From the NCBI GenBank assembly GCA_001804415.1, contig MHGA01000003.1:1-36635 (forward strand): DNA of 36,635 nucleotides, given 5' to 3'. The stretch comes from Candidatus Aquivivens invisus (lineage in GTDB: Bacteria; Omnitrophota; Gorgyraeia; Aquiviventales; Aquiviventaceae). Made by a program: the position numbers and the translations under genes. Position 1 is the stretch's first letter. Each line of letters starts with the position of its first letter. Shown here one piece after another: positions 1 to 36,635 of this stretch. The notes below the pieces were generated by a model. It did not search any database and was not told the origin of the DNA. It saw only the letters and a list, made by a program, of their open reading frames with translations.

Positions 1-3000
1 GCCCGCGTCATCCGTCACGAGCTCTCCCACAAGGCCCATCCAATCCACGGGCCTCCCGCGGTGGTGTGGCCGTTGGTCTGGCTCGCCAGCGAATTGGCGG
101 CCTCCCTCCACGAATGGTTGACACCCGCCCGACCGCCCGCCCCACCGCGTCCGGCGCCCCGCGCCACGGGACGCATTGCCTCACATCCTGCCGGACCTAT
201 TTTTTCTGGCCCTGATGAGCAAGCGCTACCTTTACGGCTCCGGGAGCCGACGCTGCCGACGCGGGAGGCACTTGACATCTTGACTAGAATCATCAGCCGC
301 TCGGCGCAGGAACCATCCCGACTGGAGGACCGGCCGCGAATCGCGCTGATCGGTTCGGCGCTGGCCGCGGCGTTTCGACGGGAGGATCGAGAGGACATCA
401 TGGTGTTCCTCCGGGAGATGCTCGAGGCGCGTCCTCAAGAGGTCCTGCCGGCTGCCGAGCGTCTCATCCGCTCGTATCTAGCGGTCGCCGAGACGACGCG
501 CTACCTGCCCGTGGCGACGGTGTGCCCGCTGCTCAAGGGCGAACCGCCAGCCGCCGTCAAGGAGCGAGTGCGCCGGGCCATCAGCCAACTGCGCGACTTG
601 TATGGCTGGAACCCCACGTGCCGTTGGACGCTCACCCTCGTGACCGACGATTTCTCTGGGCCGGTCTCCATTTACGGCGAGACCCGGAAGCTGCTGATTG
701 AGGAGTATCCTGACCTATTTACCGGCGGGCAGGTGCGTCTCTTCGAGTTGCCGCAAGAGGCGTTCCTCCCGATGCGCCGGATCAGAGATGCTGCGGCCGC
801 GTTTGGTCTGCGCCAGGCGCTCCACGCCGGAGGTGAACAGGTGGTTCTGACCACGCTCGATGGTGCCATCGACCTGCGTCAAGAGGGGCTGATCCTTGAT
901 GCCATCTCGAAGGATCAGAAGACCGTCGCCGTAGGCTCCCGCGAGCTGCTCGGCAGCCCTCGGCCCACAGCCCTCGGGACGCTGGCCAATCAGTTCCCCG
1001 GCTTCTTTTCCCGGTGGGTAGCGCTCCGAGCCCTGCAGGATGCCCAGTGTCGGTTCACCGCGTTCCATCGTGATCTGTTATGGCAAGTCCTTCCCGTGAG
1101 TTCGTACAACGAATTCGACCGAACCAGCCTCACCGCCATCACGTTGGAACCGTTCCTGGTGGCTCGCGCACAACAATTGGGTTGGTCCCTGCAACCGCTC
1201 CCGATTGCCTGGGCTGGCTCGGCGCGCTCACCGGCCCCGCCGTCTGTGAGGCGAGCGGCCGACCTGATCCACCAACAGAAGCGGCAGCTTGGCGTCTGGA
1301 CTCCGTGGCCCCTGCCGACTCTTGATCCGATCCTCCCGGTTCCATCCGTGCTCCTCGGCAGCCAATGGTTCTTGGACTTCGTCGAGCAGGAGAAGGGAGA
1401 GGAGAAGATCCCTCTGACGGAGAAGATTCGCCTCGTGCTGGAGATGTGGGATCTTGGGACGACCGACCCCCAGCACATCGCCGTTTCCAGGCTTCCCGAA
1501 GAAGAGCTGCGACTCCCGGGGGGTCCGTACCCGCTCAAGAAACGAGGCGGTCCGATTAAGCTCACGGTGCTCGAGGGTAACAAGAAAGGGACTGAGGTGG
1601 TGTTGAAGTGGATCGGTTGGACGATCGAAGAAGCACGATGGAGGATCGATGTGAGCCGGCGATGGAGTGCATCGGCACGGCTGGCGAACCTCCCGGCGGC
1701 AGACCTCTGGCCGTGTCGAGGACAACCAGAGGACCGAGTCAGCAGCTACCTTGGCAGGATCGGCGGAGCGTACTGTACACTGGAAACTTTTGTTCACGGC
1801 AACACCATCCACCCGAGCAAGACAAGCCCCCGGCACTGGGAAGACGCAGGTCGCCTCCTGTCACAGATCCATCAGGGGTTGGGGACGGAGATCCCGGAAG
1901 GGCAGAGCACGCAGTGGCCCATTACGGATATCGTCTATGCGCGGGATGACCTCGTGGAGTACCAACGCCGGGTTCAGCAATTGAAAGACGAGAACCCTTC
2001 ACAGCTGACACAGGCCGATGCGCTGTTTCTCGGCATGGTGGACCGGATCCTGAAACAGTTTGATCTCCTCGAGCAGCGCCTCAAGCCGCAGCGTCTTGCT
2101 CAGACGCGGCAGGGCGTTCTGCATCGGGATCTCAGCTTCTTCAACATCCTCTTTACCCCGACCGGGGCCACCGCGATCGACTTTGAGCGCTCGCAATTCG
2201 GGTCGCTGCTGCACGATTTTCGCAGCCTCCTCTTGACGAGGGATTGGGGCCGCACCCGTGGGTTTGTCTGGGAGCATGTCGTTGACACCGTCGCGGCGTA
2301 TCAGCAGGGACCGAACCCGCTGAGCGATGCGGATCTCAAAGTCCTGCCTGAGATCCTGCGGGCGACCCTCCTGTGGGATCTGATCAGCCGCTTTTTCTTG
2401 CGACGAGACCAAATCAACGATCAGGCCAGTCCTCGAAGCCGCATGGCGGTACTCAGCGCCTATCGGGCGCTACTTCGATTCGAGCGCGCCTTCCCAGAAC
2501 GTGGTTCCCTGGAACGCTTCGTTGAGGCTGTGCGCCGGCGGGCTCGTGGCGAGGAGCCACGCGCCGTCCCAGGAGTCGTGAAGAAGGCCTTGCGATTCAG
2601 ACTCCTGAAGGCCGCGCACCCAGAGCTTATGAGCGATCCGGCCGTCACAGCGAACGTGCTCACGCCATTTCTCCAAGTGGTCCTGTCCTCAGCAGAGCAG
2701 GCGGGGCAAGATGGCGAGGGCGTACGAGAGGCGCTCCAGGATGCGGTTTCGTTGCGCCCCGATTCGCCGTACGTGACATTTTGGGAGGCGCTTGCGGCGG
2801 CACACGCCGGCTTGAGGCTCGGCGGCCAACCGCTGTTGGCCGAGGCCTGGGAGCGATTTGTCTCGGCATGGACGCAACACGTCGTGGACAATCCTCATGA
2901 GGCTGCTCGGGCTGACTACGCGTCGGCCCTTCAGCTTCAGCTCATCGAAGAGGTCGCAGCAGCGCGTACCCAAAGCCACGTCTGGGGCACCCTAGAGGAA

Positions 3001-6000
3001 GGCTCTGGCGCCATCGTGCTGGCCAAGGTCGGCGAACCGGTGACACTGCAGACCATCTGGTGGGGGCCGCCGGTCAAGGGACTCCAGGCCGAGCTCTGGT
3101 CGAATCTCACCGGCACATGGGAGGTGGTCGCGGACGTACCCGTCGATGAACGGGCGAGACGTTGCCAAGTCACGGTTCGCCCCGAGCGAGCGGGATGGTT
3201 CAAATACACGTTTCGGTATCGACGCCCGAGCGGAGAGACGTACTGGGCGGACCTCCCGTATGGGAACGGGGTGCTGGATGTGGTCGAGCACGCCCCCAGG
3301 CGATACCAACCCCGCACAATCGTTCAGGTCTCCTACGAAGACCCGCTGCATCCCGCAGGTCCTGCGGAGCAGCGCATCAGCGCGCTCCTCAAGGAGCTGC
3401 CGCGTCTCGGCTACCGCAGCGTCCTCATTATGCCCTGGCATCACGCGCCCATGTACCCCCTTCGAGAGACCGGCCTGACGGTGGACGCGGGTGGCCTTCA
3501 GTTTGATGTGTTGATGACCCGGCTCCATGGCAGCGAGATCTATGCCGTGCGTCATCCAGAGCATTCCACAGAGAGCGCCGGTTGGCGGCCGAGGCCTCTG
3601 TTGGAGGAGGTCGCGCTCTTTTCGCTTGCCACCGTTGAGCTGTTGCGTGTGCTGCGCAGCCGCAGTGAGCTTCCGACCGATCCAGATGTGGTGCACTGTC
3701 ACGGATGGCCGACAGGGTTCGTCCCCCTCCTGCTCAAAACGACTGCTCGAGAGACGTTTCCTCTGACGGCCACCATCTTCAGCGAAACGTCCTCTGCCTC
3801 CCTGGCGCAGGGCGCCGGGCAATTCGAGGCAGAGCGATTCAACCAGCTCGTTGCGTGGGGGATTCCAGAAGAGGCCGACGAAGTCGGCGGAGGCTTCGGA
3901 CACCACGACGGTCTGAACCTTCCAAAGGGGGGCATCATCTTCTCGGACGTCGCCGCGACTGAAGGGCCTTCGAGTGGCGACCCTGAGATGACAGAATTGC
4001 TGCGCAGTCGTGGTCAGTTTTGGATCAGCCTTCCCGCCGATCCGGACGCGCCATCTGCGATCTCGGACTACGAACGGATGTGCCAGTTGGCCCTGGACCG
4101 ACGACTGGGTCATGTGCCAAGCGGCTCGGAGAAGGCGGATCAGGCGGGGGGGGCGGGGGTCCACAGCCCGCTCGGCGCGGCGGCCATCCTGGCAGGCGTC
4201 TTGTGGGAATCGTCCCCGCTACTCGTGGTTGGCCTTGGGCTCATCGCGTGGATGCTCATCCGGCACAGGCTGCAGCTCAGGCGATGGCTGCGGCGGGTGA
4301 TGCCCGCAACGGCCTCGGCGGTGAACGGAAGAATCCCAGCGATCCATGCCATGACGAGTCTACCGCCGGAAGGCAAGGAGCCGGTCGGTCCGGTGTCTCC
4401 GGCGTCTGAGCCAACCCCGGTCGGCGTGCGAGCGAATCAGACCGAGGCACGCACGCTGGCGATTGAGTTCACCAAGGACCTGCGCTTCGTGCCCGATCCT
4501 GAGGTGAAGGTGCTCACGTCGTCAGCGGATTTGCTCAGCCTGATCGGCACCGATCCGGTTGTGGCCGTGGGGCCTCACCCGGATGATCGCGAGATCAGGA
4601 TCGAGGAATTCTTGCGAGCGCTGAGCGCTGTCAATGAGCATGTCTACGCTGTGGATGTGACCGAAGACAGCCGTGGGATCAACGACGCGTTTGCCCTCGC
4701 CTGGCTCCGGGGAGCGCAGGGGCAAAGATCCTTCGTCTCGTGGTTAGCCCAAGCGATCTCTCCTGCGGATGTGGATCGCACGTCGTTGGATACGATCAAG
4801 CAGGGCATTCGGAGGCGTGAGGCGATTGAGGTCGCACGGGCGATGGGCATTCCGGAGGTGCACTACCGCAACCTGGGGATCGAGTTGCCCTTCAATGGAG
4901 TATTCGATACGAAGAACCTTGCGTTGGTCGAGTCCTATGTCCTTGAACGACTCCAACAGAACCGCGCGCGCGTCTGGATCTTGCCGTATCCCTTCACGAA
5001 GACCCCGCATCATCCCCATCACACAGAGACCGCGTTCGCCTTTCTCCGCATCCTCAAGGAGCAGCGCTTTACGGGCCGCATCGTCTTCTATGAACCCTTC
5101 GAGAACGAGACGGATTTTGACCGCGAGGGCGTCCGAGCCAACCTGATGTTTGCATTTCGGCGAGATGGGCTGAACAAGAAAATCAAGATCATCCGGCTCT
5201 TCCCCTCGCAGCTCGACCGGAGACCGTATGATGAGCGTGCCGAGGCGCGAGACGCCGAGCATGCGCTGCAGGAAGCGAAGCGACTGCCGCAAAGCCCAGA
5301 GGAGGAGGCCGAGCGCCAGAAGCTCGTAGGGCGTCCGTACGTCGAGCGGTTGCTCGCCGGTCACCTTGAGTTGCCCGAGCCGCCCACCGCAGCGGCAACG
5401 CACAACACCCCAGCCAGCAAGGTGGTGAAGACGGTCGCGCTCGTCTTGACCGGGCTGGCGACGGGGGCGTGGAGCGGTGGGACCTGGTGGGTACCGCTGA
5501 TCATCCTGGGACTGGCCGCCGCATGGGGGGGCTGGGCCGTTCATCGCGCCCGAACGACCAAGCCAGACACTGGCCAGGTCGAACGCTTGGTCACCCTGCT
5601 GACATCAGGGAGCGCGCGGGATCGTGAGCGAGCCAGTCAATGGCTCATCGCGCTTGCCAAACGCAAAGAGGCACTGCAGAGTCTTGAAGCCAGTATCCCG
5701 CAACTCATCAGCCTCCTTGAGGGATCTGTCTGGTACGAGATGAGGCGGCTGGCAGAAACCGTGCTAGAGGCATTTGCCAAAGCGCACATTGGTGATGACT
5801 CCCCAGCCTGGTGGGCTGGAAAGGGGCGTGGGGGCGAAATCTTCCTTGCGCAACTCCTAGCTGACATTGGCTCATCTGACGCGCAGGTGCGGACACAGTA
5901 TTCCAAGCAACGGTTGACGAGCCTCATGGCGACCGTCAACCCAGAGACGCTTGCCAAGCAGATTCCGTGGCTGGTCTCGCGTCTGGAATCTCAACCTGAC

Positions 6001-9000: not shown

Positions 9001-12000
9001 CGCCGCAATGCCAAAGGTGGGCATCTGACTCACTCCTTCACGTCCTGGGGAATCGCAATAAAGCCAAGTCCCCAGCACACGAATGCCATCATGAGGCCTA
9101 ACACCACGAGGACCCAATTCACCGCTGGGCTCGCCAAGCTGCCTACGCCGGTCACCGTCGCAAAGTATTTGGCGACGTCCATCAGCATCTTGCCCGTCTC
9201 GTACCGACGGGTGCGATTAGCCATCGCTTCCAACTTTAGCCGATTGTTCCCCGAAAGTCAATTCGTTCACTCGTCGCGGCGCTGGCTGGGGTGGCTGGTG
9301 GCGTTGGCGATCCTCGGGCCGGTGTTAGTGTCCGCTGGCACCCTTGATCCTGAGACCGCGAGAACGCTCGGCTTGGGACTGGCCGCGCTGCTGGTGAGCG
9401 TGGTGGTCTCCATCGGCTTGTCGATGGTGCTCGATGACATCCGGCGCGACCCGGATGCGCCTCGTGCCACGAGCGCCGGTGCCGGTCCCAGCCCCCGCGG
9501 CCCGCCTCCACACAGCGCTCTGCCCACGCAAGAATCCTCGTCAATCCTTCACGCTGCCCCCGCTCGTCAAGGTCCCGCCGATCCCCACGACCTGCCGGGT
9601 CGGCCCCTGGGGATGTTCGACCGGCACGGCGAAGTGAACATCATTGGAGCGGTCGGGAGCGTTCCGCAACCGGGCACCATGGCTGGCACGCAACCGACCG
9701 CCCCAGGCACCCGCCTCCCGCCGCCCGCCACGGCGACATCGCCTGCCGCAATTCCCTCGGTCTTTGCGCCGCTGCTCATGACCTTCGGAGCGGTCGGGCG
9801 TCCGGAGGAGCGGCCGGATCAGGACGTGTTTCAGGCCGTGGATCTGTCGATCCTGCCAGGTTCGCCGGAACACAACCGCTTGGCGGATAATCTGCGAACG
9901 TTCGAGGCGGCGTCCGAGCCGATCCGCGAGCTGCTGCGTGAGCTTCACGATCGCGCGATCCAGATTCGTTTCATGAATCACTTGGCAACGCCGAGCCTCC
10001 GCGTCGGGCCGACGCTCTACCTCCATCAACGTGTGTTGGATCGAGATGCCGCCACCGCGCCCGAAGCTGCGGCGGTGGTGCTCGAGGGGGCGCTGGTGCG
10101 ACAGTGGGCCGACGAGGGCCTGCTGAGGCTTGAGCCGACGGAAGCGTTCCTCCGCGACGCGACTGCCACGCTCTTTGAACTGGAACCGTACCTGCGCTTT
10201 CGCCGGACGCGCGCCCCGCCGGCGGCGGAGGCGCTGCAGACGTTCTTGGCGGAGCTAGCCCCCGTCACCTCGTTGAGCGCAGCTCAGGTGGCGGCGTGTG
10301 TCGACGTCGTGAATCGCCTCGCCACGGAGGAGTCGTTGTACGCCGAGGCGGTCGGCTACAAGCTCGATGGCATCCGGCACGTTGTGGAATTTCTGAGGAC
10401 GCATGATTTCCGGTATCGAGGCATGGAGTTGTCGGGTGATCTCGCGCAGCGTATCGCGGATCTACGGGATGAACGCTTGTTACGACGCGGCCTGGAGAGG
10501 TTTTCGACGCTGCACCGTCTGGAGCTCGAACCCGAAGGATCGATTTCCCCTTGGGACTATCTCTCTGTGACAGTTTCTAACCAACACCAGCAGCGTGCAT
10601 TCGAGGCGGAGGTCGCCTACCGCGATGCGCTTGGCATGTTGCCCCGCAAGACCAAAGCGCGCGTCGTGCCACCCCCGCCTGAGCTTGAGACCCCGTCTGG
10701 CACCAGGGCGGAGGGATGGGTTTCCCATCCAAGTGGCAGTGGAGTGCTGAATGCGGTACGGACAGCCTTTCTCGAGACCGCGAAGGAACGCGCTGCCCGC
10801 GGAGAGCCCATTCGCAGTCTTGAGGATCTCATTCGCCATCGGAAATGGCTGATCATGTTGTCTGCAGGATCGTCCAAGCGCATTCCACCGTTCGCCGCCC
10901 TGGGGAAAATCTTCATCCCCTTACCTGCCAACGCAACGCTCCTCGGTCCGCGAAAGCTCACCACGACGGTCTTTGATGAACTTCGGGCAGGGCTCAGCAA
11001 TATCGCCGCGAACGTCGACGAAGGGCTGGTGGTGATCCCGGGTGACGCCTTAGTCCTCTACGATCCGGAGAATGTGCAACTGGTGCGCCCAGGGGAGCGG
11101 GGCTACTTCAGTGAGCTCGTTTGGCGTGGACCCGTCAGCGTCGCAGAGGACCATGGGGTGCGACACGCGAATGCCCAGGGACTCATGGTGCGGAGTGTCG
11201 AGAAGGAGAAAGCTCCGCAGCTGCACGCCATGGGAGCTGTGGATGATCACGGGTTGACGAACATTTCCACGGCTCTTATCTATGCCGATCCTGATGCGAC
11301 AGTGGCCTTGGCGAAACTCGCCGGACTGCGTGTTGAGCCGGGGCGGGGGCTCGTGTATGACAAGCAATTGGACTTAGTACAGCAACCCCAGTTTCTCGGT
11401 CGTGATGTCAGTTGGTTTGACGACGTGCTGCCGGCGTTGGCGTTGCAGACGGACCCGAGCGCGTATCTCGCTGCGCACAAGAACGGGGACTTTCGACGCT
11501 GGTTCTGGCGGGCGTTCAGGCAAGAGGCCTCGCTGCGGTATTTCGTGACGTCCACCCGACCGCTGCTCTTCGGCGACTTCGGAAAGACAGATGAATTCAT
11601 GGAGCATCTCAACTCTCCGACCATGCTCCACCGTGTCTACCGGTTCCCCAGTCGCTTGAACGCGCATGTCGCAACCGGGGCGGATGTCTCATGGTCCGCG
11701 ACGGTGTTTGATTCGGTCATCTTGGGGCTGCGGGAGTTGAGGTTCGTCCCGTCCAATGATGTGACGCTCTGGGTGGCCCCCGATGGGACGATCGTGCGCG
11801 ATTCGCAGGGTCTGTGGACTGGCGGAAGGGTCGAGTTGGACGTCGTCGACGGCAAACCGGTCAACGGGTGGCTCACGGCGCCCCGAGGCTCCTGGCTCTC
11901 CGATCGTCAGGTTGCCAACGTCCAGAACGAGCAGATCGTGATCAGTCCTGTGAGAGGCAGCGGGCAGCCCGGCCAGCCGTGGTTGGTCCGTGAGTTGGCC

Positions 12001-24000: not shown

Positions 24001-27000
24001 CATGAACGTCCGGCGGTGTTTCGGGTTTTGGTCGTCGACGATTATGGAGGCATTGCTGACGGCATCAAGCGGTTGCTCGAAATTAGGCATAAGGGGTTAC
24101 AGGTGACGACGGCGTCCAGCGGTCGAAAGGCGATTGCACTGCTTGCCGAAGCCGACCCACCATTTGATCTCGTGATCTCCGACGTTGAGATGCCCGAGAT
24201 CGATGGGATTGCCCTGGTGCAGCACATTCACAAGCATCTGCCCCGTGTCCGCGTGGTATTGAATAGTGGGTTGGCTTCATGGCAGGTCGAGCAGAAGTTG
24301 AAGACGGCTAAATTGGACCCCCAAGCAGTGCCAGTCTTTGACAAAGGAGTAAGCGGTGGCCTCGACAACTTGATCAGGCAGCTAATGTCCAGGCAAACTG
24401 CAGCCGAGGTCCCGCCCGCACCAGCATCCACACTCCGCACTCCGCATTCGGAAGCGGCGGAGCCGCTGATCGGGCATGGTGGGTTCACGGTTGAGGAGTT
24501 GAAGCTGGCGGACGTGGAGTCGTGGTCGTCGTCGGAGGCGATGGGCAAGACGATCGCCGATCTGAAGCAGACCCTGCACGATCGCGCGCCGGACGGAGCG
24601 CTGAAAGCCGCGATGCTCACCGCCCTCAATGAAATCCAAGAGGGCCGCGGCGATTGGACGATCGGTATGACTCCCTCCCGCTTTGACCACCCGACGCGCT
24701 ACTACCTCGGCTTTGGTTTTCTGAAGAGAGTCGCCCTCGCCAAAGAGTTCTTCACGCCCAGCCACCCGTTATTCGCCCATCGCGAGGAGGCGTTCTTCCA
24801 CGAGCTCTACCACGCGCTTAACGAGAACCCCAATGCGACCGAGCTCGAAGGGGATCCCCTGATCCACCATGCGGCCCTCCTTTTCCAGGCGGTCCTGTTT
24901 TGGGATTTGACGCCGGAAGAGCATGAGACGGTCTGGGGGCTTCCAACCGATCAGCTCGAGCACCATCCCAAGAACGCCCTCGGCCAGGCGATTCGCGATT
25001 GGAAAACCGGGCAACGTGCCGCGCGCAGCGGATCGGTCACTGAGCGGGCGGAGTGGCGCCAGGCGGCGCAAGAAACCGTCGATCGCTATGTGGCGTTGCG
25101 GCATTGGCTCCTGGGATCGAATGGATGGCAGGCGCTGCCAACCGAGTTGACGGACGTCGGGGTCACCGAGATGCCGAGTGTCGATGACATGGTCAAGAAA
25201 CTCAAGGCAGGAGCCGAGAAGTGGCGCGAGCAGCGTCCGGTAGAGGATTCCGGCTTGGTGGCCCTGACGGACGACATCCCCAACGTCGCGCCGCTCGCGA
25301 AACGGATCAATCGGACTGACTCGGATCCGCAGGCGATCCGTCAGGAGCTCGTGCGACTGCTGACCCAACGTCATGCAGCCGACCTGCCGGCTGATGTTCG
25401 AGATAACTTTGTGCGGCTCGTGACAGCGGCCGTTGCCGCATTACCGCCATCGGTCGATCCATCGATGCCAGCCATCCACAGTTCGACGACGGTGCGCGAG
25501 CCGCTGATCGGGGATGAGGAGACGGCGCTGATCGGGCGCGGGTTCACCCGGGCGGAGCTGGAGCAGATGCCGGTGAAACCAACCCCGCGAGCCTACAAAA
25601 CCCTGCAGGACCTTGCCGGTGTCCTGGCCACATGGCAGACGCCTCCGGAGGGTTTCAGCCAGACGGCACAGATCGAGTGGGCACGGACGATGAAGGATCT
25701 CCAGGCGACGCTCGCCGTGTTCCTGAGTGATCCTGATGGCCGGAGCCTCACCTGGGGCGAAACCGACTCATCCTATCTGCAGTCGGCGCTGTGGTTCCTC
25801 GGGTTCGGCACGCCGCGCCCTCGGTGGGCCCTCGGAGACGTGTTCTTCGATCCCGCCGATCCACTGGCCTCAGAGCGTCTGCAGGCGGCGTTCCATGAGC
25901 TCGTCCAGGCGGCCGGGGGTCAGTTGACCCGGCGCTGGGAAGCGTCTGCCCGGATGACGGTGCACGAATGGGCGATCCGCATGGCGGCCGTGATCTTCTG
26001 GAAATTGTCGCCAGCCGAGGTCGAGCGGATGACCTTGAAGGAGCTGGAGAAGCACGACAGCAACGTGCTGGGCAAGATGATTCGGGACTGGCTGAAGGCC
26101 AAGGAAACGGCCAGGCGCGAGCTGAAGGGTCCGGAGTTCACGGCGCAACGGATCGGCGCCTTCAGACGATGGTGGGAGGGACGGGGGGAGCGCCGCCCGG
26201 AGCACATGGCGGATTGGCAGCGGATGAATGCCATCATGGGGGTGCTGGTGAAGAAAGTCGGTGAAGCCCCGTTCGGCCTGGCCTTGGATGATCTGCTCGA
26301 GCCCTGCCTGGCGGCGCTGGAGGCCCAGGGATTGTCCGTGGGGCCGACGTCGGTCCGTGAGCTGTTGGACCGACTGGCCGGCCTTGGAGCGCTGTCTCAG
26401 CAAGCCGGGTTATACCGGCTCGCACTTCCTGAGCCGGTGGTCGCCGTGAAATTCAAGGCGGTGTGGCACATCACGGGCAAAATCCGCCAGGCGCTTGCGG
26501 CACTCAACGCTCGTCAGCCGAAGGCAGAAGCACACGTTGAGGAGCTGCTCGTCGGTTATGCGAACGCGACACGCCAGTGGCTGGATGACACGCGGGAGAG
26601 CCGCTGGCCGGTGCTGCATGCGATCAGCGTGCTCGACGCCACGGAGCAGGCAGGGCTGCTTGAAGCCATGAAGCGCCTGGAGGCTCGGAACGGAGCGTTG
26701 CGCGCGATGCCGCTCTTCGAAGACATTCACCTTATGCTGGAGCCGCCGCCGGATGGCTGGTTGAGACACCAGGCGCCGCAGCTCGTCGGCCGCACGATCT
26801 ACTACCTCGCGGCGGAGTGCTGGGGACAGGTCGCCGGCGGCCTGGGCCACGTCGGGCGCGCGGGCACGACCGCGGTGCGGCGGCTGATCGGCCATGACGC
26901 CCGCCTGCGGACCGTGGAGCCGTACTATCCGTTTATGGCCGGGCCCGACGGCGAAGCGGCGATCGACTACACCCAGCCGCCGATTGGGATCAAGGACTTC

Positions 27001-30000
27001 CGCCAGATCATGAGCTACACGGTGCGCGTGGGTGAGAACGAGGTGCCGGTGCGGGTCTTCACCGGCAGAAAAGAGCTCGCAGACGGCACCCAGATCGACA
27101 CGTACTTCATCGGAGATGGCAACTCCGATCAAGCCTCGCGCTATGCCCGGAGGCTGTACCAGTACAACCAGGATGGCACATCAAGCGTGGCGGAGTTCGG
27201 GGTGTTTTTCTCGGCGGCGGCTGATGAGCTGCTTCGACGGCTGGATGCGCAGGATCGTGAGCAATTCGGCCCGGCCTGGAAATCGTCGGTGCGATGGTCC
27301 AACGACGGGCAGCTTGGCCTCGTCCCGTTGCTGAAGCTCATGCATCCTGCGGCGCAGGCCGATGCGGAGGAAGCGATCGACGCCTTCTGGGGCCACACGG
27401 TCTACAACCGAATCGACGGCGATCCGGCACGGGACGTGATTCGGTTGGGCCACGTACCGCCGGCTTGGCAGCCGGTCTTCCACCGCTATCACGAGGCCGA
27501 CGCGAGCAGCGCCGGATTGCGCAGCGCAGAAGGGAGAGTCTACGTCAGCGCCGCGCACCGCGAGGTGATGAGCCGGTTGGATCCGAACCTGCCGTCCGTC
27601 GCCATCGCGAACGGGGATGTGCGGGAAGAGTCGGCCGCCGTGTTCCGAAACATCTTGCGTGAGCAGCATGGACCTGGCGTCGATGTCGAGCGTCCGACCG
27701 CTGAGCAGGTGGCCGGCGAGAAAGTGGAGGCCAGGCATCGGTTGGCCCGGCGGCTTGCGGCCCGCGGCGTGACGATCGACCCGCGGCGTCCACTTGTCAT
27801 GACGTCCGTTCGGCTGGTGCCGGAGAAAGCAGGCCGCCCGACCAAGGACCATCCCCAAGGGCCCTTCAGTGACGATAATATCTGGGTCTACCTCCGGGCC
27901 GGCGCGACGGTGTTGTTCGACGGCAACATTCAGCGCGGCAGCACGACGAGCGTGGAGATGGGTCAGGAGCTCTCCCGGTTCGAGAGCGAGATCCGCGAGA
28001 CGATGCAGCGCATCGACCAGCTCATTGACGTCGTGCGCACCCACGGCGCGGCGGGAGACGTCTTCCAGGACGTGCAAGCGCGCCAAGCGCTCATCAAAGC
28101 CTTCGAGCGGCTGGGCATTCCGAAGGCGCCGACGAGCCATGGCATCCTCCGAGCGTACCGTTGGGGGACGCAGGACGTTCCGCTCCTCGTGCACATGGAC
28201 CTTGGAACCGCCTCTGGAACGGAACAGGTGTTGGACGCCATCACACCGGGCGAGAGGTCGATCGGTGCGCTCCTGGGCACGGCCTCGCTGGAAGGCGACC
28301 GGAGTCGGCGCCGCGTTCGCGTGGTGGATGCCGTGACAGGAACGGTCTATGCAGAACCGACCATTGAAGACATGGTGACAGGCGGCATGTCGATTGGGGT
28401 GCCACTGACCGGGCATCTCCAAGTCCTCCGGTTTGAGCTGGTGACGGAGGAGGTGACCGCGCCTGAGGGGAGCGCTGAGCAGCGAGTGGCTTCGGGGCTG
28501 GATGCGCTGCGCCCTGGGCAGTTCATCTTCCGCAGCGGTGTGGGGCCTGAAGAGAAGGCGGAGGCGTTGGCGGCCGCCGACATGGTGGTGCTCGGGTCCC
28601 ATCAGGATACCGAGGCCTCTGGTGCCAGCGAAGTCAACGGGCCGGTCAACGCCGCAGTCATTGTCGCGCCGCCCTATCCTGAAGGGACGCTGCAAGCGCA
28701 GGGGGTGGTGCTGGATCGCACCAAGCCGGGTTCAGGCAACATCCTCATCCCGGCCGATCACACCTCCAACGCGTATCGCGAGGCGATCCTCTGGGCGATC
28801 GAGCAGGCCAAGACCGGCAGGCTGGCGCCGTACCAGGCGGTGTCGGTTCCGCTGAGCCGCGTCTTCACCGCGGAGCTCGCCGGCGCGGAGTCCCTGAGGT
28901 ACTTCAACAGCCTCGTGGAGCAGCGCTCGGCCGAGCGGCCTCTGGATCGGCTGGAGCGCTGGCGGCAACAAAACCAGGTGGAGGCTCAACACTTCCGCAA
29001 CCCACGCGCGCGCTTGGAGCTGGTCCACGCGCTGGATCGGTCTCAGGAGTGGATGCGCCTGGACACGCAGCACCAGACGATTCACGTGCACCGCGAGACA
29101 ATCACCAACGGGACCGTCCGTGTGGTGGCGGCGGACTTGCGAGAAGATCAAACCGAGGGGAAAGAATGGGATCGTCTCCCGGCCGGTGAGGCGTCGATCG
29201 GCGCCCTCTTGGGCCCGGCGGCGCTGGCGGGCGACCGAAGGCAGCGCCGCGCTCGCGCAGTGGATGAACGTCATCCGGACCAGATCTACTGGGAGCACAG
29301 CGTTGAGGAACTGGTCCGCGACGGGGTGGGCATCGGGGTGCCGCACGACGGCCACCTGCAGGCGTTTCGGATTGAGCTCGTGGGCCCTGAAGTCGGCGAG
29401 GCCTCGCCGGTCGCGTCGGCGCCAGCCACAACACCCGCGGTGTCGCCCGTGACCTCAGGAAGCGCTGCAGGAGCGGAGACGGCCGGCGTGACCGGGGTCG
29501 TCAAGGCGGTTGCCTCGGCCGTCTCGCTGCTCCTTGCGCCGCTTGTCCTCGTCGCCTGGCTGTGCCTGGCTGCCCTAAGCCAGGCCCGCGCGGACGTGCC
29601 GCCGGTTCCGGTTGACCGTCCGGTGCCGGTCGAGTTCTCGCCCGAGGCCCCACGAGCGCCGCCGCGCGCCGACTCGAAGCGGTTCAGCCGGCTGCCCATC
29701 TCAACCAGTGGCCAAGTGGCCAAGTGGCCAAGTGGCCAGGACAATGCGTTTGGGACGCACGCTGAACGCGCCACGCCGGCGGCGAATGAACGCTCGCCGG
29801 ATCAGCCAACCCCTGTGGCCTCCGTGCCACCCGCAAACGATTCGCGCACCCGCGGATCGTTTGTTGGTATTCGGGGACTGTCGGATGGACCTTCTCGCAG
29901 GCCCGACACCGTGTCGTCTGCGAGCGACACCGGTGTTGCGGCGGGGTTGGTTGAGCCAATTGGTGGGGTGCTCGGCGGGGGTGGGGCGGGAATCGGTCCG

Positions 30001-33000
30001 GCGGCGCTGGTTTCAGCAGAGGGGTTGGTCGTGACGGTCGTCATCCTCCTGCTCTCGGCGATGCGGGCGGCCCGGAACGAAAAACTGTATGCGGCGATTC
30101 TCGCGCAGTTCCACGGCCGCGAGGTCACACGGTTGGAGCAGTGGACGCTCGTCCGTCAACACCTCACCGACGGTGGGCTCACGGGACTCGTCGACCGCCT
30201 GGACCACTTGCGCTATTTCCGCATGGGCGGCGGCTTGCTCGAAGAGTCCAACCCGACGGTCATCATCGAGGAGATCGGCCGCCTTCCCTTATCCGAATCT
30301 GAGCGAGCCCTCATCCGCCTCGCCTTCCTGACGCCGCACGAAGGCGGTGGGCCGCCCATCCGGACCCCCCACCACAGCGGTTTCCAGGGCCGGCGAGCGC
30401 CTCCATCGGCGGCGGAGCGGGCGATCCGGGCTGCGCGGGGTCAATTGTTGACGCACATGTCTCCGGAACAAGACCCGTTTGTGCAGATGATGGCGCCGAA
30501 GGCGATCGAAGACGTGTTGAGAGGGCTGGCTAAAGGAGCCGATGCCCAAGGCCTGAATGCGGCCGTGACGACGATTGACAACATGCTGGGTCTTCCGAGC
30601 AGTGAGCTGCAAACCTCACGCGAGATCGTGGAGCAACTCGTCACACAGCTCCACACGCCTGCCGGTCCGCCGGCCGTACCCGCCGTTGAAGCAGCCCCTC
30701 CGCAAGCTCCCGCAGCCAATCGTCCTGACCTCGCCACGACGGCCCCCATCACCGCTCACCTCCAGCTTCTCATTGAGAAGATCCAGGCGCTCAATGCCAA
30801 TCACCCGGCTGCCACCGCGTTGTCCGCGGTCAACGCACATGGGCAGCCGGTGTCCCGGACGGTCCGGGCCGTCTGGGCGATTGCGCATCAGTACCGGTTG
30901 TTTGAGCCGCCATCATTGTCCTCGATTCTCAAAGCGCTTCTCGCGCTCGCTCCCCTCACCCTCTACGGCAACGTCCCGGTTGATTGGCGCGCGTGGCGGC
31001 CGGTTCAGCAGTGGGACGCCACGACAGAGGTGACCCAGATCACTCACATCGCCAACCCCCGGTTCGTGGCGAGGTTGGGAGCGGATGGACGCTACCACCT
31101 CGGGTGGAGGAACCTCATCACCGAAGCCTGCTATCAGCTGTTGGCTCCAACACTCACCAGGACGATGCTGCGCTTCACGCCGCCATTAGCCAAGGATCGA
31201 ACGCCCACGCTGCACGGGCACGTCGTAGAGGATGAAGCAGCGTTTCTCCAGGTCATCCCGAAGATGTTCGCGACACCACCCGCGTCGTTGCGCATGACGG
31301 TGGTGCCTGCCGAGGCTGACCGCAGCTTGGCCAACGGCAGGACCGACGTCGACTGGATTGCGTTCATCACCGCGCAGCCTCCTCCGCGGCGACGTGGTGA
31401 GGACCCGGCTGAGCGCGAGGTGGAGCAGGCGCGCCGGCAGGTCGGGAACGAATTCGTCGACCAGGCGCTGGAGCTGAAGGTGGCGCTGCGTGAAGTGCCC
31501 ATCGTGGCTCACATGATCCGCGATCTCGGGTTGGACAAGGTCCGTCATCTTCTTGCGGGAGACTTCACGCTGACGACCGAGGGAACGCGGGAGTGGACGC
31601 GGCGGCTCCTGCCGGCCGTGATGCCGTTGCTCCTCCCGCTGGCCGCCATCGGCGGGACGGTGAACGGCGGTTCGCCGGGCTCGTGGCCGGCGCTCGCGGC
31701 GCGGTTGAGCGGGCCCATGGTGGGTGATGTGGACTTCGTGGTCGCGCTCGTGTTGCTGGGGCTCTTGGCCGTCATCGCATGGGCCGGGCTTCCTCATGGG
31801 GTGCGCGATGCCGCAGACTGGGGCCGTCGGCGACGCGAACGGCTCCCCCGCGCGCTCGCCGCGATCGCTGGCTTCGTGGCGGTGTTCTACGCAGGGATGC
31901 TCAACGCGACAGCGCAGTCCGGCCATTGGAGGGTGGCGCTCATGATCGCCGCGATTATTGGTGCCCTCGCGTTCAGTACCGGGGTTGTATGGAAGGTGCT
32001 CACGTCCGACCTGCACCGGCACGGCGCCTCACCTGTCCGCCTGAAGGCACTCCTGCCGTGGCTGCTGGGTGGCGCGTTGGCTGGAGGACTGGTCTGGCGG
32101 GCCTACCAACAGCAGCAACAGGACGCGACGCCTCCTCGGCACACCGCGCCGATACCGATCCTTGCCGTGACGCTACCAGCGCTCATGCGGAGGAAGACGG
32201 ATTCGGAGGAGGCGCCATCGCGGATGGATCACCTCGCCCCGCCGCCGATCGCGCCGCGGCATGATCCCACGGGCAAGGCGGATGTCCTGAAGACACTTGC
32301 CCAACAAGAGGTCGCACGCCTGCAGGCTACGAAACAGTTGCTGCCCGCCGTGGAGGAGGCGCTGTGGCGGGAGGGTGAGCCGGCGGTCATCGAGGCTCGC
32401 GCCCTGGGGGTGGACTGGGCTGATGTGCCGACCGTCGCTCGCGTGCTGCGCGAGCGCGGAAGCGAGTGGACGCGCAGGCTCATTGAGGCCGGCCGGTATA
32501 CCGCGTCGGTCCCTGGCGTGTGGCTGCCGATCTCGTCTGCGGATCATGATGCGCTGCTGGCCGAGCTGCAACGGGCGCGGCCTGGGCAGCCGGTGCAGGC
32601 GTTTCGGAAGGAGGTCTACAGGAGACATCCGGAATGGCGCGGGTTCTTCCCGGTCCTTGAGGCGTGGGTTGGGGGAGCGACGGCGCTGACCCGCGACGAC
32701 CTCGACGAATGGCAGGAACTGCTGGAGCGGTCCCGGCGCGCTCATGCGTTCAGGGCGCGTGCCGGCGTGCGCCCATTCGGCGTGCAGGTGAGCGTGAAGC
32801 CGTTTGTGTTCGGCCAGCCGGCGCGCGCCGAGACGCTCGTCATGCGGCTGCAGCCTGATGTCGACGAGGCGGCGTTGATCCGTCAGGAACAGGCCGAGGC
32901 GGTGCTGCAACAGGGCCATCATCCCGGAGCGCTGGCGTTTGCGTACCTCCTCCTGGATGGCGATGCGCTGATCGTCACGACCCTGCAAAGCGATCTCTTT

Positions 33001-36000: not shown

Positions 36001-36635
36001 GATGACGTATTGCCTCAGCTCGGCGGCAACCCGCAGATTCGCCTTCTCGCCGTCATCGGCGCGCTCGCGGCGGCCGTGGCGGTGGCGGCGGATGTCGCCT
36101 GGAATGAGGGGATCGTGTCGCTCGTCGTGAATCTGTTGATCGGACCGGTGGGGCTGGTGGTACTGCTGGGGATTGGGACCGTGATGCTCGCGCGAGATCT
36201 GATGCGTCGCATGCGCGCTCGCGACGACGCCGGCGAAGAGCTGCCCGATTCTGACGCGCCTCAAGGATCCTCCTGGAAACCATCGCCGACCAGCTGGAAG
36301 CCGGGCCGGGAGTGGACGGGGACAACCTATACCGATGGTCCAGACACGAGGCGGCGCGGAGAGTGGTGGAAAGATGGGGACGCGCCGCCTGCCTGGAACA
36401 CCGGCGAGGACGATGACCCTCGCGAAGGCGGCAACCCGTTGATCGCACTGCTCGTCGCGACCAGCGCGTCCTCGGCGGGGCTACTGGTGTTGGGGGGAAT
36501 GGTTCTCGGTCAGCCGGAGTTGGTCGACTGGGCCGCTGCGCCGCTGGCTGTCGTCGTGGCGGGCGTCGCGTGGGCCGTGGGCCGGCGAACCGCGGAGGGA
36601 CGGTTCGGGTTACTTCTGTTGCGCCGGAACTTCTT
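1..36635 (+). CDS. Giant multidomain membrane protein, internal fragment (no start or stop in window), >=12,211 aa
   Basis: Frame +1 reads without a stop from base 1 to the end. All + ORFs in the supplied track have starts with coordinate mod 3 = 0 or 2, none = 1; an internal stop in frame 1 would have produced a listed frame-1 ORF. Recognisable protein families occur in this frame along the whole length. Confidence 0.95.
601..1236 (+). other. Domain: GT2-like (GT-A) glycosyltransferase, probably degenerate
   Basis: Frame 1: LTLVTDDFSGP...VVLTTLDGAIDLRQEGLILDAISKDQKTVAVGSREL...DAQCRFTAFHRDLL...LQPLPIAWAGS. Resembles the GT2 pattern TDADLS-DL-QEGLLLDPI / VAIGSR / DTQCGFKAF / PI-W-DS, but the DxD region is altered (TTLD). 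Confidence 0.55.
1561..2460 (+). other. Domain: APH/choline-kinase-type phosphotransferase-like
   Basis: Catalytic-loop motif HRDLSFFNILF (about 2122-2154) followed by AIDFERSQFG (about 2176); upstream LHRD context and VLKW near the N-lobe. Confidence 0.7.
2995..3306 (+). other. Domain: Ig/CBM-like beta-sandwich preceding a starch-synthase-like domain
   Basis: VGEPVTLQTIWWGPPVKGLQAELWSNLTGTWEVVADVPVDERARRCQVTVRPERAGWFKYTFRYRRPSGETYWADLPYG; beta-rich, with W-x-Y/F spacing typical of Ig/CBM modules. Confidence 0.5.
3310..3990 (+). other. Domain: GT5 glycogen/starch synthase N-terminal half-like (truncated)
   Basis: DVVHCHGWPTGFVPLLLKT...FPLTATIFSE...NLPKGGIIFSDVAATEG, corresponding to GT5 DVIHxHDWxTAxVPxLLK...TIHN...NxLKGGIxxADxVxTVS. 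No KxGG motif or C-terminal GT-B half found here. Confidence 0.7.
4156..4275 (+). other. Transmembrane hairpin
   Basis: PLGAAAILAGVLWESSPLLVVGLGLIAWMLIRHRLQLRRW: two hydrophobic stretches then a basic cluster. Confidence 0.65.
4531..5370 (+). other. Domain: PIG-L/LmbE-type de-N-acetylase-like
   Basis: VVAVGPHPDDREIRIEEFLRAL (PHPDD at about 4573-4587) and ARVWILPYPFTKTPHHPHHTETAFAFL (second His cluster at about 5005-5022). Confidence 0.7.
5428..5556 (+). other. Transmembrane hairpin (TM-GTWW-TM)
   Basis: VVKTVALVLTGLATGAWSGGTWWVPLIILGLAAAWGGWAVHRART. Confidence 0.75.
5581..6240 (+). other. Domain: HEAT/ARM-like solenoid with 89-aa tandem repeat
   Basis: Copy A from 5695 (IPQLISLLEGS...VLEAFAKAHIGDDSPAWW...GGEIFLAQLLADIGSSDA); copy B from 5962 (IPWLVSRLESQ...VLRAFAKAQIGAGSSVWE...GVEIWVQACVEALSSEA). 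Period 267 nt. Confidence 0.65.
7843..7980 (+). other. Transmembrane hairpin (TM-GTWW-TM)
   Basis: AAKVGLMSLLGVTWFFTSGFMNGTWWLALLGAFTVVAVAKTVAE; same layout as 5428-5556. Confidence 0.75.
8806..8868 (+). other. Transmembrane segment
   Basis: WGGEAGVLALGLLVGGLLLGQVEL. Confidence 0.65.
8902..9024 (-). CDS. Small single-span membrane protein, 40 aa, second gene of antisense pair
   Basis: ATG at 9024, TAG at 8902-8904: MPTFGIAALGIGVFAVAVWLTVMIAERVDANRRRAHHKHA. Preceded on the minus strand by AAGGAG-8nt-ATG (AAGGAGTGAGTCAGATG), the SD lying in the end of the upstream gene. N-terminal hydrophobic helix plus basic tail. Confidence 0.7.
   Translation of the reverse strand: MPTFGIAALGIGVFAVAVWLTVMIAERVDANRRRAHHKHA
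9030..9224 (-). CDS. Small membrane protein, 64 aa, first gene of antisense pair (possibly similar to small DUF-type membrane proteins)
   Basis: ATG at 9224, TGA at 9030-9032: MANRTRRYETGKMLMDVAKYFATVTGVGSLASPAVNWVLVVLGLMMAFVCWGLGFIAIPQDVKE. Two hydrophobic helices, protein-like composition unlike the Arg/Pro/Ser-rich shadow ORFs. The track extends it to a TTG at 9233; ATG 9224 is the better start. Confidence 0.7.
   Translation of the reverse strand: MANRTRRYETGKMLMDVAKYFATVTGVGSLASPAVNWVLVVLGLMMAFVCWGLGFIAIPQDVKE
9233..9261 (-). promoter_or_regulatory. Candidate sigma70-type promoter for the antisense small-protein pair
   Basis: Minus strand reads TTGACT (9261-9256), 17-nt spacer, TAAAGT (9238-9233), then TGGAAGCG-ATG. 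Locally AT-richer than its surroundings. The short gap implies a leaderless or near-leaderless mRNA if used. Confidence 0.45.
9277..9429 (+). other. Transmembrane hairpin
   Basis: SRRWLGWLVALAILGPVLVSAGTLDPETARTLGLGLAALLVSVVVSIGLSMVLDD. Confidence 0.75.
10831..12780 (+). other. Domain: L-fucose-1-phosphate guanylyltransferase/fucokinase (FKP-type) pyrophosphorylase-like
   Basis: RHRKWLIMLSAGSSKRIPPFAALGKIFIPLP (FKP-like SxGxSxRxPxxxxxGKxxxPxP), GLVVIPGDALVLYDPE, beta-helix-like GSIGDRSIVSASFLDGDFKIGQNCLV, then SLWNAKLFAP. Confidence 0.65.
13141..13740 (+). other. Domain: HIT-type GDP-sugar phosphorylase-like (GDP-glucose/GDP-L-galactose phosphorylase family)
   Basis: RLWFNSLGAAASVNHFHFQGAY with HxHxQ (HFHFQ, 13426-13440); flanks FLVLVNNTPTIRHTILL and NIPHNPFFSRNKVIVFVRN. 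Confidence 0.7.
14050..14895 (+). other. Domain: HEAT/PBS-lyase-type repeats
   Basis: DPRNNVRLAAVRAFGRIRGKGAVEELLPLLNDPFWAVHREAAYVLGESRDPRATAALVLKL...DETLRRACVWALGQL...DPSLKVRLEAGDALPKLASE. Confidence 0.8.
15064..16800 (+). other. Domain: phosphoglucose isomerase/SIS-like, copy 1
   Basis: DIVVMGMGGATQGIYTYLQAFG, FIFSSKAGGVPEGNANFTYYW, VGGRFSALSTEMLVFAALLGID, GINPFNEPGV, GPRFQHSVLQLLTDGPKTGLHALVAFD...FGQFIRAQSLGTAKSLEEKGQWVMRF. Matches Tal-Pgi-style PGI; SKSGTT is replaced by SKAGGV. Confidence 0.8.
17290..17965 (+). other. Domain: class I SAM-dependent methyltransferase (PrmB/HemK/RsmC-like)
   Basis: Motif I ADVLDMGMGSGPHTGYALLRGARRAVGIDV; NPPY-like motif LNAPPVY (about 17683-17703). Confidence 0.75.
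18020..20010 (+). other. Domain: phosphoglucose isomerase/SIS-like, copy 2
   Basis: SHVVFIGQGGSILSIPVAQQL, HWLDSTDPEAK, QFIVITKSGETRETRENLKW, DIGGRFSAPGTRVLLLPLALL, GIPESLHSTQQYRKDGRNTGFLTLIVHT, LKAQTLATLDDLTQAGRRAVLLIV. Confidence 0.8.
21385..22095 (+). other. Winged-helix-like helical modules
   Basis: DLFTALRKTPDRSLTFEALQQHLGSDAATLQRLLVDLEYLLLI and ELLMAADRAGMAVRSVGRVLGLLVRVGALWTRERQAYGI; wHTH-like periodicity only. Confidence 0.35.
23296..23655 (+). other. Domain: Ig/CBM-like beta-sandwich, second WWGP-type copy
   Basis: VRITLPFELEPSLVHRIVLFVWWGPDEDREHWRADPAHVTYTSVSEKGQHVRGQLSSTIHPPTAFPGRSGKFSVTVVAMPHG...GGQDATFEV; shares WWGP with 2995-3306. Confidence 0.45.
24013..24390 (+). other. Domain: response-regulator receiver (REC), catalytic residues intact
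   Basis: FRVLVVDDYGGIADGIKRLLE...LQVTTASSGRKAIALL...FDLVISDVEMPEIDGIALVQHI...VRVVLNSG...PVFDKG; phospho-acceptor Asp codon at 24181-24183. Confidence 0.9.
24460..25200 (+). other. Domain: zincin-like module, copy 1 (HELYH)
   Basis: EPLIGHGGFTVEEL...YYLGFGFLKRVALAKEFFTPSHPLFAHREEAFFHELYHALNE...FWDLTPEEHETVWGLPTDQLEHHPKNALGQAIRDWKTGQRA; HELYH at 24799-24813. Confidence 0.6.
25498..26150 (+). other. Domain: zincin-like module, copy 2 (HELVQ, degenerate)
   Basis: EPLIGDEETALIGRGFTRAEL...WFLGFGTPRPRWALGDVFFDPADPLASERLQAAFHELVQAAGG...FWKLSPAEVERMTLKELEKHDSNVLGKMIRDWLKAKETA; HELVQ at 25894-25908, colinear with copy 1. Confidence 0.6.
26785..28110 (+). other. Domain: GT5/GT-B glycogen synthase-like, second copy
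   Basis: TIYYLAAECWGQVAGGLGHVGRAGTTAVRRLIGHDARLRTVEPYYP (cf. AAEC-P-AKVGGLGDV--ALP-AL--LGHDV-VV-P-Y) and VEARHRLARRLAARGVTIDPRRPLVMTSVRLVPEKAGRP (C-terminal half pattern). Confidence 0.65.
28252..28443 (+). repeat. SIGALLG protein repeat, copy 1 (about 64 aa)
   Basis: ERSIGALLGTASLEGDRSRRRVRVVDAVTGTVYAEPTIEDMVTGGMSIGVPLTGHLQVLRFELV. Confidence 0.8.
29185..29382 (+). repeat. SIGALLG protein repeat, copy 2 (about 66 aa)
   Basis: GEASIGALLGPAALAGDRRQRRARAVDERHPDQIYWEHSVEELVRDGVGIGVPHDGHLQAFRIELV; colinear with 28252-28443. Confidence 0.8.
29491..29592 (+). other. Transmembrane segment
   Basis: VTGVVKAVASAVSLLLAPLVLVAWLCLAALSQAR. Confidence 0.7.
29707..29738 (+). repeat. Perfect 8-bp tandem repeat, (AGTGGCCA)x4
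   Basis: Read directly: agtggcca agtggcca agtggcca agtggcca, followed by gg. Encodes SGQVAKWPSGQ in frame 1. Confidence 0.95.
30007..30066 (+). other. Transmembrane segment followed by wHTH-like module
   Basis: ALVSAEGLVVTVVILLLSAMRAARN, then EKLYAAILAQFHGREVTRLEQWTLVRQHLTDGGLTGLVDRLDHLRYFRM. Confidence 0.55.
31609..32110 (+). other. Polytopic membrane region (about 5 TM segments)
   Basis: LLPAVMPLLLPLAAIGG; VDFVVALVLLGLLAVIAWAGL; ALAAIAGFVAVFYAGML; VALMIAAIIGALAFSTGVVW; ALLPWLLGGALAGGLVW. Confidence 0.75.
32761..33240 (+). other. Unassigned globular domain, weakly GNAT-like at its C-terminus
   Basis: GALAFAYLLLDGDALIVTTLQSDLFRPL...LARRYNVWPDVLLTAIEDYARHLGLRRVQIVSADDQLRHAQRFSAIQADRLYRSVPERHGYKEYPVE. 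Confidence 0.35.
34801..35900 (+). other. TPR-like alpha solenoid
   Basis: MRQAEQQFRQTLEATHDSMVAVGVCLAFAAFYRDWGRDDAARLDDGITLLRQDAQRLLEG...AIHLLQGLLPDPSAALLLTRIARWHRAYGLG...GRAAFTQAIRLLQDAARLARDEDLALRTSLELGETWLAWF. Confidence 0.5.
36037..36204 (+). other. Transmembrane hairpin
   Basis: IRLLAVIGALAAAVAVAADVAWNEGIVSLVVNLLIGPVGLVVLLGIGTVMLARDLMRRMR. Confidence 0.75.
36433..36588 (+). other. Transmembrane hairpin
   Basis: NPLIALLVATSASSAGLLVLGGMVLGQPELVDWAAAPLAVVVAGVAWAVGRR. Confidence 0.75.

Follow-up and report, generated by a model that had tools for sequence, protein, structure and literature searches.

The window analyzed here is the whole 36,635 bp stretch of DNA from Candidatus Aquivivens invisus, and it is filled by one giant open reading frame (ORF) carrying enzyme-like modules and transmembrane (TM) segments. 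It is the complete contig C3 of the host genome (1.42 Mb, 46 contigs, 93% complete) and contains no N; both of its ends are therefore assembly ends, and C3 cannot be extended.

An open frame across the contig

Frame +1 contained no stop in 12,211 codons from contig end to contig end, and the other five frames contained 342, 311, 254, 340, and 113 stops. With the stop rate taken from the base composition or from frames +2/+3, the probability of a stop-free frame was 10^-137 to 10^-151. The codon usage of frame +1 correlated with that of 238 ordinary ORFs of the same genome (r = 0.946, compared with 0.16–0.77 for the other frames), and frame +1 scored highest in 762 of 811 sliding windows. The exceptions were small losses, mostly to the mirror frame on the opposite strand. 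No sign of an internal frameshift was found in codon usage across these 811 windows of the stretch, and a frameshift or fusion artefact as the source of the open frame was ruled out by the codon statistics. The stop-free frame +1 claimed in the preliminary description was thus confirmed, and its reading as a single protein fragment no shorter than 12,211 aa was supported. At 36.6 kb, the frame exceeds the >20 kb criterion for a giant ORF in Omnitrophota.

An artefact of assembly or binning, or an open frame arising by chance at high GC, would fit the metagenome-type assembly, the N gaps in neighbouring contigs, and the long antisense ORFs present at 64% GC. It is nevertheless very improbable given a chance probability of about 10^-140, a codon usage matching that of the genome, and the presence of similar giants in a relative at 45% GC and in a single-contig genome.

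Probable further pieces in the host genome and the head family

At least the ends of all 46 host contigs were inspected, with gene names at contig ends assigned by eye. On its minus strand, contig C25 (20,310 bp) was open over its full length in a single frame of 6,769 codons. At the left end of C1, also on the minus strand, a 1,823-codon ORF ran off the contig; it began with a Sec-type signal peptide (…LRRALSLTLAIAVGTSCLPVFPHHALA) followed by a region of about 550 aa, hereafter the head. The signal peptide and head (L010, positions 1–5228 of C1) constitute the sole head-type start in the host genome, in which a profile search retrieved exactly one head copy. The other contig-end frames long enough to judge were ordinary genes, such as those for alanine and valine tRNA ligase, DnaK, DnaJ, and MurC. 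The search for the C-terminus and stop of the giant at the host contig ends returned only ordinary genes or short frames, and no second giant-type start was found at the ends inspected. C25 carried HEAT repeats, an Rce1-like match, and several Cro/C1-type helix-turn-helix domains, the last of which (L033, aa ~3480–4080) lie inside a cysteine-poor chain. HExxH motifs occurred in both C3 and C25.

Since C25 is also one open frame and C1 carries the only head-type start of the genome, we infer that the C1 head, C3, and C25 are parts of one protein broken by the assembly, which would comprise at least 1,733 + 12,211 + 6,769 residues (about 20,700 aa). In the simplest reading, a single gene would begin at the one start on C1, continue through two interior contigs in either order, and lack its end. 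Accordingly, the earlier proposal that the true protein is larger than the window is probably correct. Of its suggestion to recover the parent contig, start, and stop, the contig was obtained whole and a head-type start was located on C1, which would belong to the window if the contigs are joined as proposed; the stop was not found.

Alternatively, C3 and C25 could belong to two or more separate giant genes, with the C1 head leading only one of them. No end overlaps link C1, C3, and C25, some relatives hold many heads (12 and 13 profile matches in G004 and G012, fragments included), and a second start could be missing from a genome that is 93% complete. We regard separate genes as rather unlikely, however, because the whole genome holds one head, neither a second giant-type start nor any stop was seen at the contig ends inspected, and C1, C3, and C25 share the same cysteine depletion (see below).

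Matches to the N-terminal region of C1 occurred in 75 of the 147 genomes from the host's class, in frames of up to 9,878 aa, and this region represents a family absent from Pfam. Within the host's own family, the head was detected in 11 of 27 genomes by profile search. It was located near the ORF N-terminus in nearly every locus examined, preceded by 16–103 residues in one locus subset, and 82 of 83 head leaders contained a strongly hydrophobic stretch. Heads stood alone (~515–570 aa) or led longer ORFs; the head ORF of G010:C138 was closed, stopping at 212. The named relatives with a head were Candidatus Omnitrophota, with Auribacter as an outlier. The assignment of the host to Omnitrophota, previously deduced from module content, is supported by this kinship, as its class relatives belong to that phylum (e.g., G030:C3, JAUVHV010000001.1).

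The confidently predicted model of the head (pLDDT 89, pTM 0.76) and its sequence point to, without proving, a place near the ChaN/Tiki superfamily. Invariant residues D29, H31, E59, and GGFH 423–426 form the D-x-H, EG, and GGFH motifs, in which the head resembles the ChaN/Tiki (PF04187), TraB, and erythromycin-esterase superfamily. The PF04187 profile matched 2 of 58 heads at ≤0.01 (best E 2.5e-4), and weak fold hits to the model included EreC, 3b55, and ChaN. In contrast to these proteins, the head has a large helical insertion; its fold had no match in the PDB at E ≤ 0.001, and no Pfam match at gathering level was shown. Profile hits to calmodulin-like chains fell in the helical insertion and were taken as chance, and these chains were rejected as relatives of the head.

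Modules, membrane segments, and cysteine depletion

The features of the window are listed in Table 1. As first described, the chain is a mosaic of enzyme modules and TM segments, with domains identified in both Pfam and NCBIfam and 12 (strict) to 20 (lenient) TM segments in C3 by simple hydropathy. The linkers between modules are rich in Pro/Ala/Ser/Thr/Gly. Similar TM hairpins with a short SGGTWW/NGTWW-type turn lie between modules at 5420–5541, 7850–7975, and 31852–31989 (aa ~1807–1847, 2617–2658, and 10618–10663).

Table 1. Features of the window (nucleotide positions; aa, residue numbers in frame +1).
Feature	Position	Strand	Evidence
Single ORF spanning 12,211 codons, open at either contig end	1..36633	+	Stop counts, codon statistics
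APH/CotS-type phosphotransferase domain, aa 589-754; HRDxxxxN and DFE kept	1765..2262	+	Pfam PF01636 E=1.7e-12; motif reading
N-terminal domain only of a GT5 starch synthase, aa 1127-1320; KxGGL lost	3379..3960	+	Pfam PF08323 E=6.8e-16; NCBIfam glgA far below cut-off
PIG-L deacetylase domain, aa 1522-1683; retains HPDD and a second, His-rich motif (HHPHH)	4564..5049	+	Pfam PF02585 E=7.8e-8
TM hairpin, aa 3096-3143	9286..9429	+	Hydropathy
Fucose-1-phosphate pyrophosphorylase domain, aa 3614-3907; weak further match to aa ~4252	10840..11721	+	Pfam PF07959 E=1.9e-39; NCBIfam PRK13412 below cut-off
HEAT repeats; of four stretches the best is aa 4721-4780	14161..14340	+	Pfam PF13646 E=1.3e-22
Phosphoglucose isomerase-like module 1, aa 5023-5572; Cys-free; retains catalytic E, R, K; has lost the SKSGTT phosphate loop	15067..16716	+	NCBIfam PRK09533 3.4e-97, below cut-off
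Methyltransferase-like domain, weak, aa 5820-5893	17458..17679	+	Pfam PF13649 E=0.0015, below gathering score
Phosphoglucose isomerase-like module 2, aa 6053-6449, on to ~6670; TKSGET, GGRFS, ESTGK, LHST kept	18157..19347	+	NCBIfam PRK09533 3.5e-48
Response-regulator receiver domain, aa 8009-8095; retains DD, D, S, K	24025..24285	+	Pfam PF00072 E=2.9e-15
HExxH metallopeptidase-like motif HELYH, aa 8267-8271	24799..24813	+	Motif only
TM segment, aa 9841-9859	29521..29577	+	Hydropathy
Cluster of four TM segments, aa 10536-10663	31606..31989	+	Hydropathy
Cluster of four TM segments, aa 12015-12193	36043..36579	+	Hydropathy

The view that the protein is neither a nonribosomal peptide or polyketide synthase nor a simple adhesin repeat protein held. 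No condensation, adenylation, ketosynthase, or carrier domains were found in the Pfam and NCBIfam scans of the window, and self-BLAST of C3 and C25 returned one 65-aa match between them, in the HEAT region, with no long arrays of similar domains. A protein pattern search of genome contigs found no close homologs of the window, aa 8701–9800 had no homolog in the GTDB family beyond the host genome, and only the isomerase modules matched the PDB by sequence.

Catalytic motifs were kept in the receiver, APH, PIG-L, and second isomerase modules and lost in the GT5 module and the phosphate loop of the first isomerase. From this mixture, the chain is probably part working and part structural. A surface coat built entirely of dead enzyme folds, with the modules as inactive beads, is possible though doubtful: KxGGL and the second domain are missing from the GT5 module, the SKSGTT loop has been lost from isomerase module 1, and no enzyme module of the window reached an NCBIfam equivalog cut-off, but the motifs of the four modules named above are largely retained, and the only cysteines kept in a giant of the relative G004 are zinc ligands. 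It is unlikely that the chain is a polyprotein, translated whole and later cut into separate exported enzymes. The linkers and the HExxH motifs would suit such processing, but no known processing site was recognized in the chain, and the internal TM segments would keep the pieces membrane-bound.

Cysteine was scarce throughout, with 21 residues in the 12,211 aa of C3, 9 in the 6,769 aa of C25, and 3 in 1,742 aa of C1. These counts correspond to 1.72, 1.33, and 1.72 per 1000 residues, compared with 10.1 in the other long ORFs of the host genome (log10 P about −29). The scarcity was uniform over the length of the chain, with no stretch of 300 aa holding more than 3 cysteines, and included the modules of cytoplasmic type: the host's separate isomerase has 8 cysteines in 588 aa, and the two isomerase modules of the window have 0 and 1. 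Among relatives in the same family, G010:C96 had no cysteine in 3,156 aa, and the only two cysteines of G004:C148 (7,767 aa) were those of the PCxxC (PCVKC) zinc-ligand motif of a deaminase that also has the HAE motif. In a wider set limited to head ORFs ≥1,000 aa, the median was 4.3 per 1000, compared with 8.75 in neighbouring ORFs. Obligate anaerobes tend to keep cysteine out of exported proteins (PMC12453122), and the cysteine pattern argues for a single extracytoplasmic chain. This uniform purge gives direct sequence evidence on where the whole chain works, and the retained zinc ligands in G004 suggest that catalysis is selected for in at least some modules.

Giants in relatives and the proposed role of the chain

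Closed giants with start and stop within the contig were found in relatives (7,861, 6,547, 9,166, and 5,383 aa); the 5,383-aa ORF comes from a single-contig genome. Two same-family contigs were wholly open, namely G010:C96 (9.5 kb) and G004:C148 (L080, L081; 7,767 aa open from end to end in 23.3 kb at 45% GC); the modules in G004 included a cupin, PfkB, methyltransferases, the deaminase, and a weak Fic match. A closed ORF of 2,770 aa (L208) combined a head with a phosphoglucose isomerase module like those of the window; by BLAST, its isomerase was the sole giant-borne relative of the window's modules. Closed head ORFs carried phosphoglycerate kinase, nucleotidyltransferase, phosphoglucomutase, pyruvate phosphate dikinase (PPDK), and isomerase modules; the first three were located behind a signal-like leader and head in L134 and PPDK likewise in L177. 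The 7,861-aa head-led ORF (L118–L119; G030:C3, 217205–240787) contained LysM, pieces resembling SecA, and a region matching the 1,3-beta-glucan synthase family. A tally of 59 post-head segments gave mostly one-off enzymes.

We consider the window to be the interior of one giant Omnitrophota gene split by the assembly and encoding an exported, membrane-anchored multi-module chain, with a probability of roughly 70%, because the frame is open and coding, C25 is alike, C1 carries the single head, relatives contain closed giants and L208, and the cysteine depletion is shared. The Sec signal peptide would take the chain out of the cytoplasm, the scattered TM segments and hairpins would anchor it in the inner membrane, and the head, HEAT repeats, and enzyme-derived modules would face outward, forming a tethered chain at the cell surface or in the periplasm. 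As proposed for the coat protein of Ca. Velamenicoccus archaeovorus (39,678 aa), this chain may serve cell–cell contact.

Several points weigh against this interpretation in addition to the missing end overlaps. C25 holds a 28-N gap and C1 a 14-N gap, and the TM topology was derived from simple hydropathy only. The phosphoglucose isomerase, receiver, kinase, and pyrophosphorylase modules and the helix-turn-helix domains of C25 belong to cytoplasmic types, and such modules do not normally meet their substrates outside cells. The cysteine depletion was set against only a rough calibration within the genome, in which a noisy ORF set gave 7.2 cysteines per 1000 in signal-bearing ORFs compared with 12.1 in cytosolic-like ORFs.

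The preliminary description had noted that giant genes are reported from this phylum, and the literature agrees. In Omnitrophota, ORFs >20 kb were reported to be common rather than exceptional, and they were described as showing little conservation and resisting interpretation (Seymour et al. 2023; PMC10066038). The giant of Ca. V. archaeovorus has 42 TM helices, and its peptides were up 3-fold in attached cells (PMC10066038). The window shares with these ORFs the phylum, length, many TM segments, few annotated domains, and poor conservation across genomes. It differs in its sugar-phosphate, kinase, and receiver modules, whereas the Omnitrophia examples in that paper carry adhesion domains (discoidin, laminin, or dockerin). 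Neither a shared N-terminal head nor a cysteine purge was met in the parts of that paper compared here. Similar in being giants of this phylum are the genes of Omnitrophota and neighbouring groups that reach ~85,800 aa and were proposed to encode predatory surface proteins (West-Roberts et al. 2023, bioRxiv 10.1101/2023.11.21.568195, as cited in PMC12057145). A secreted ~6,000-aa protein of Ca. Menyafoubacter (PMC12057145) resembles the proposed chain in its signal peptide, large extracellular chain, and PVC-group origin but has adhesin/lyase domains and no TM helix.

Giant ORFs are thus already known in Omnitrophota, and the present analysis adds the shared head, the mosaic of metabolic-enzyme modules, and the cysteine pattern. 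A more speculative idea, which we consider improbable, is that head-led giants are a phylum-wide export platform, in which a signal peptide and a ChaN/Tiki-like head lead a cysteine-purged chain of working enzymes (sugar-phosphate enzymes, kinases, deaminase, Fic-like, receiver, and DNA-binding modules) acting outside the cell or inside contacted prey. If true, this platform would be the multi-effector counterpart of cell-contact toxins in predatory or epibiotic Omnitrophota. The shared head provides a sequence tag by which Omnitrophota giants can be found and counted even in broken assemblies, and stand-alone heads are proteins small enough to express. Together, the head and the cysteine pattern make the location and activity of these giants testable.
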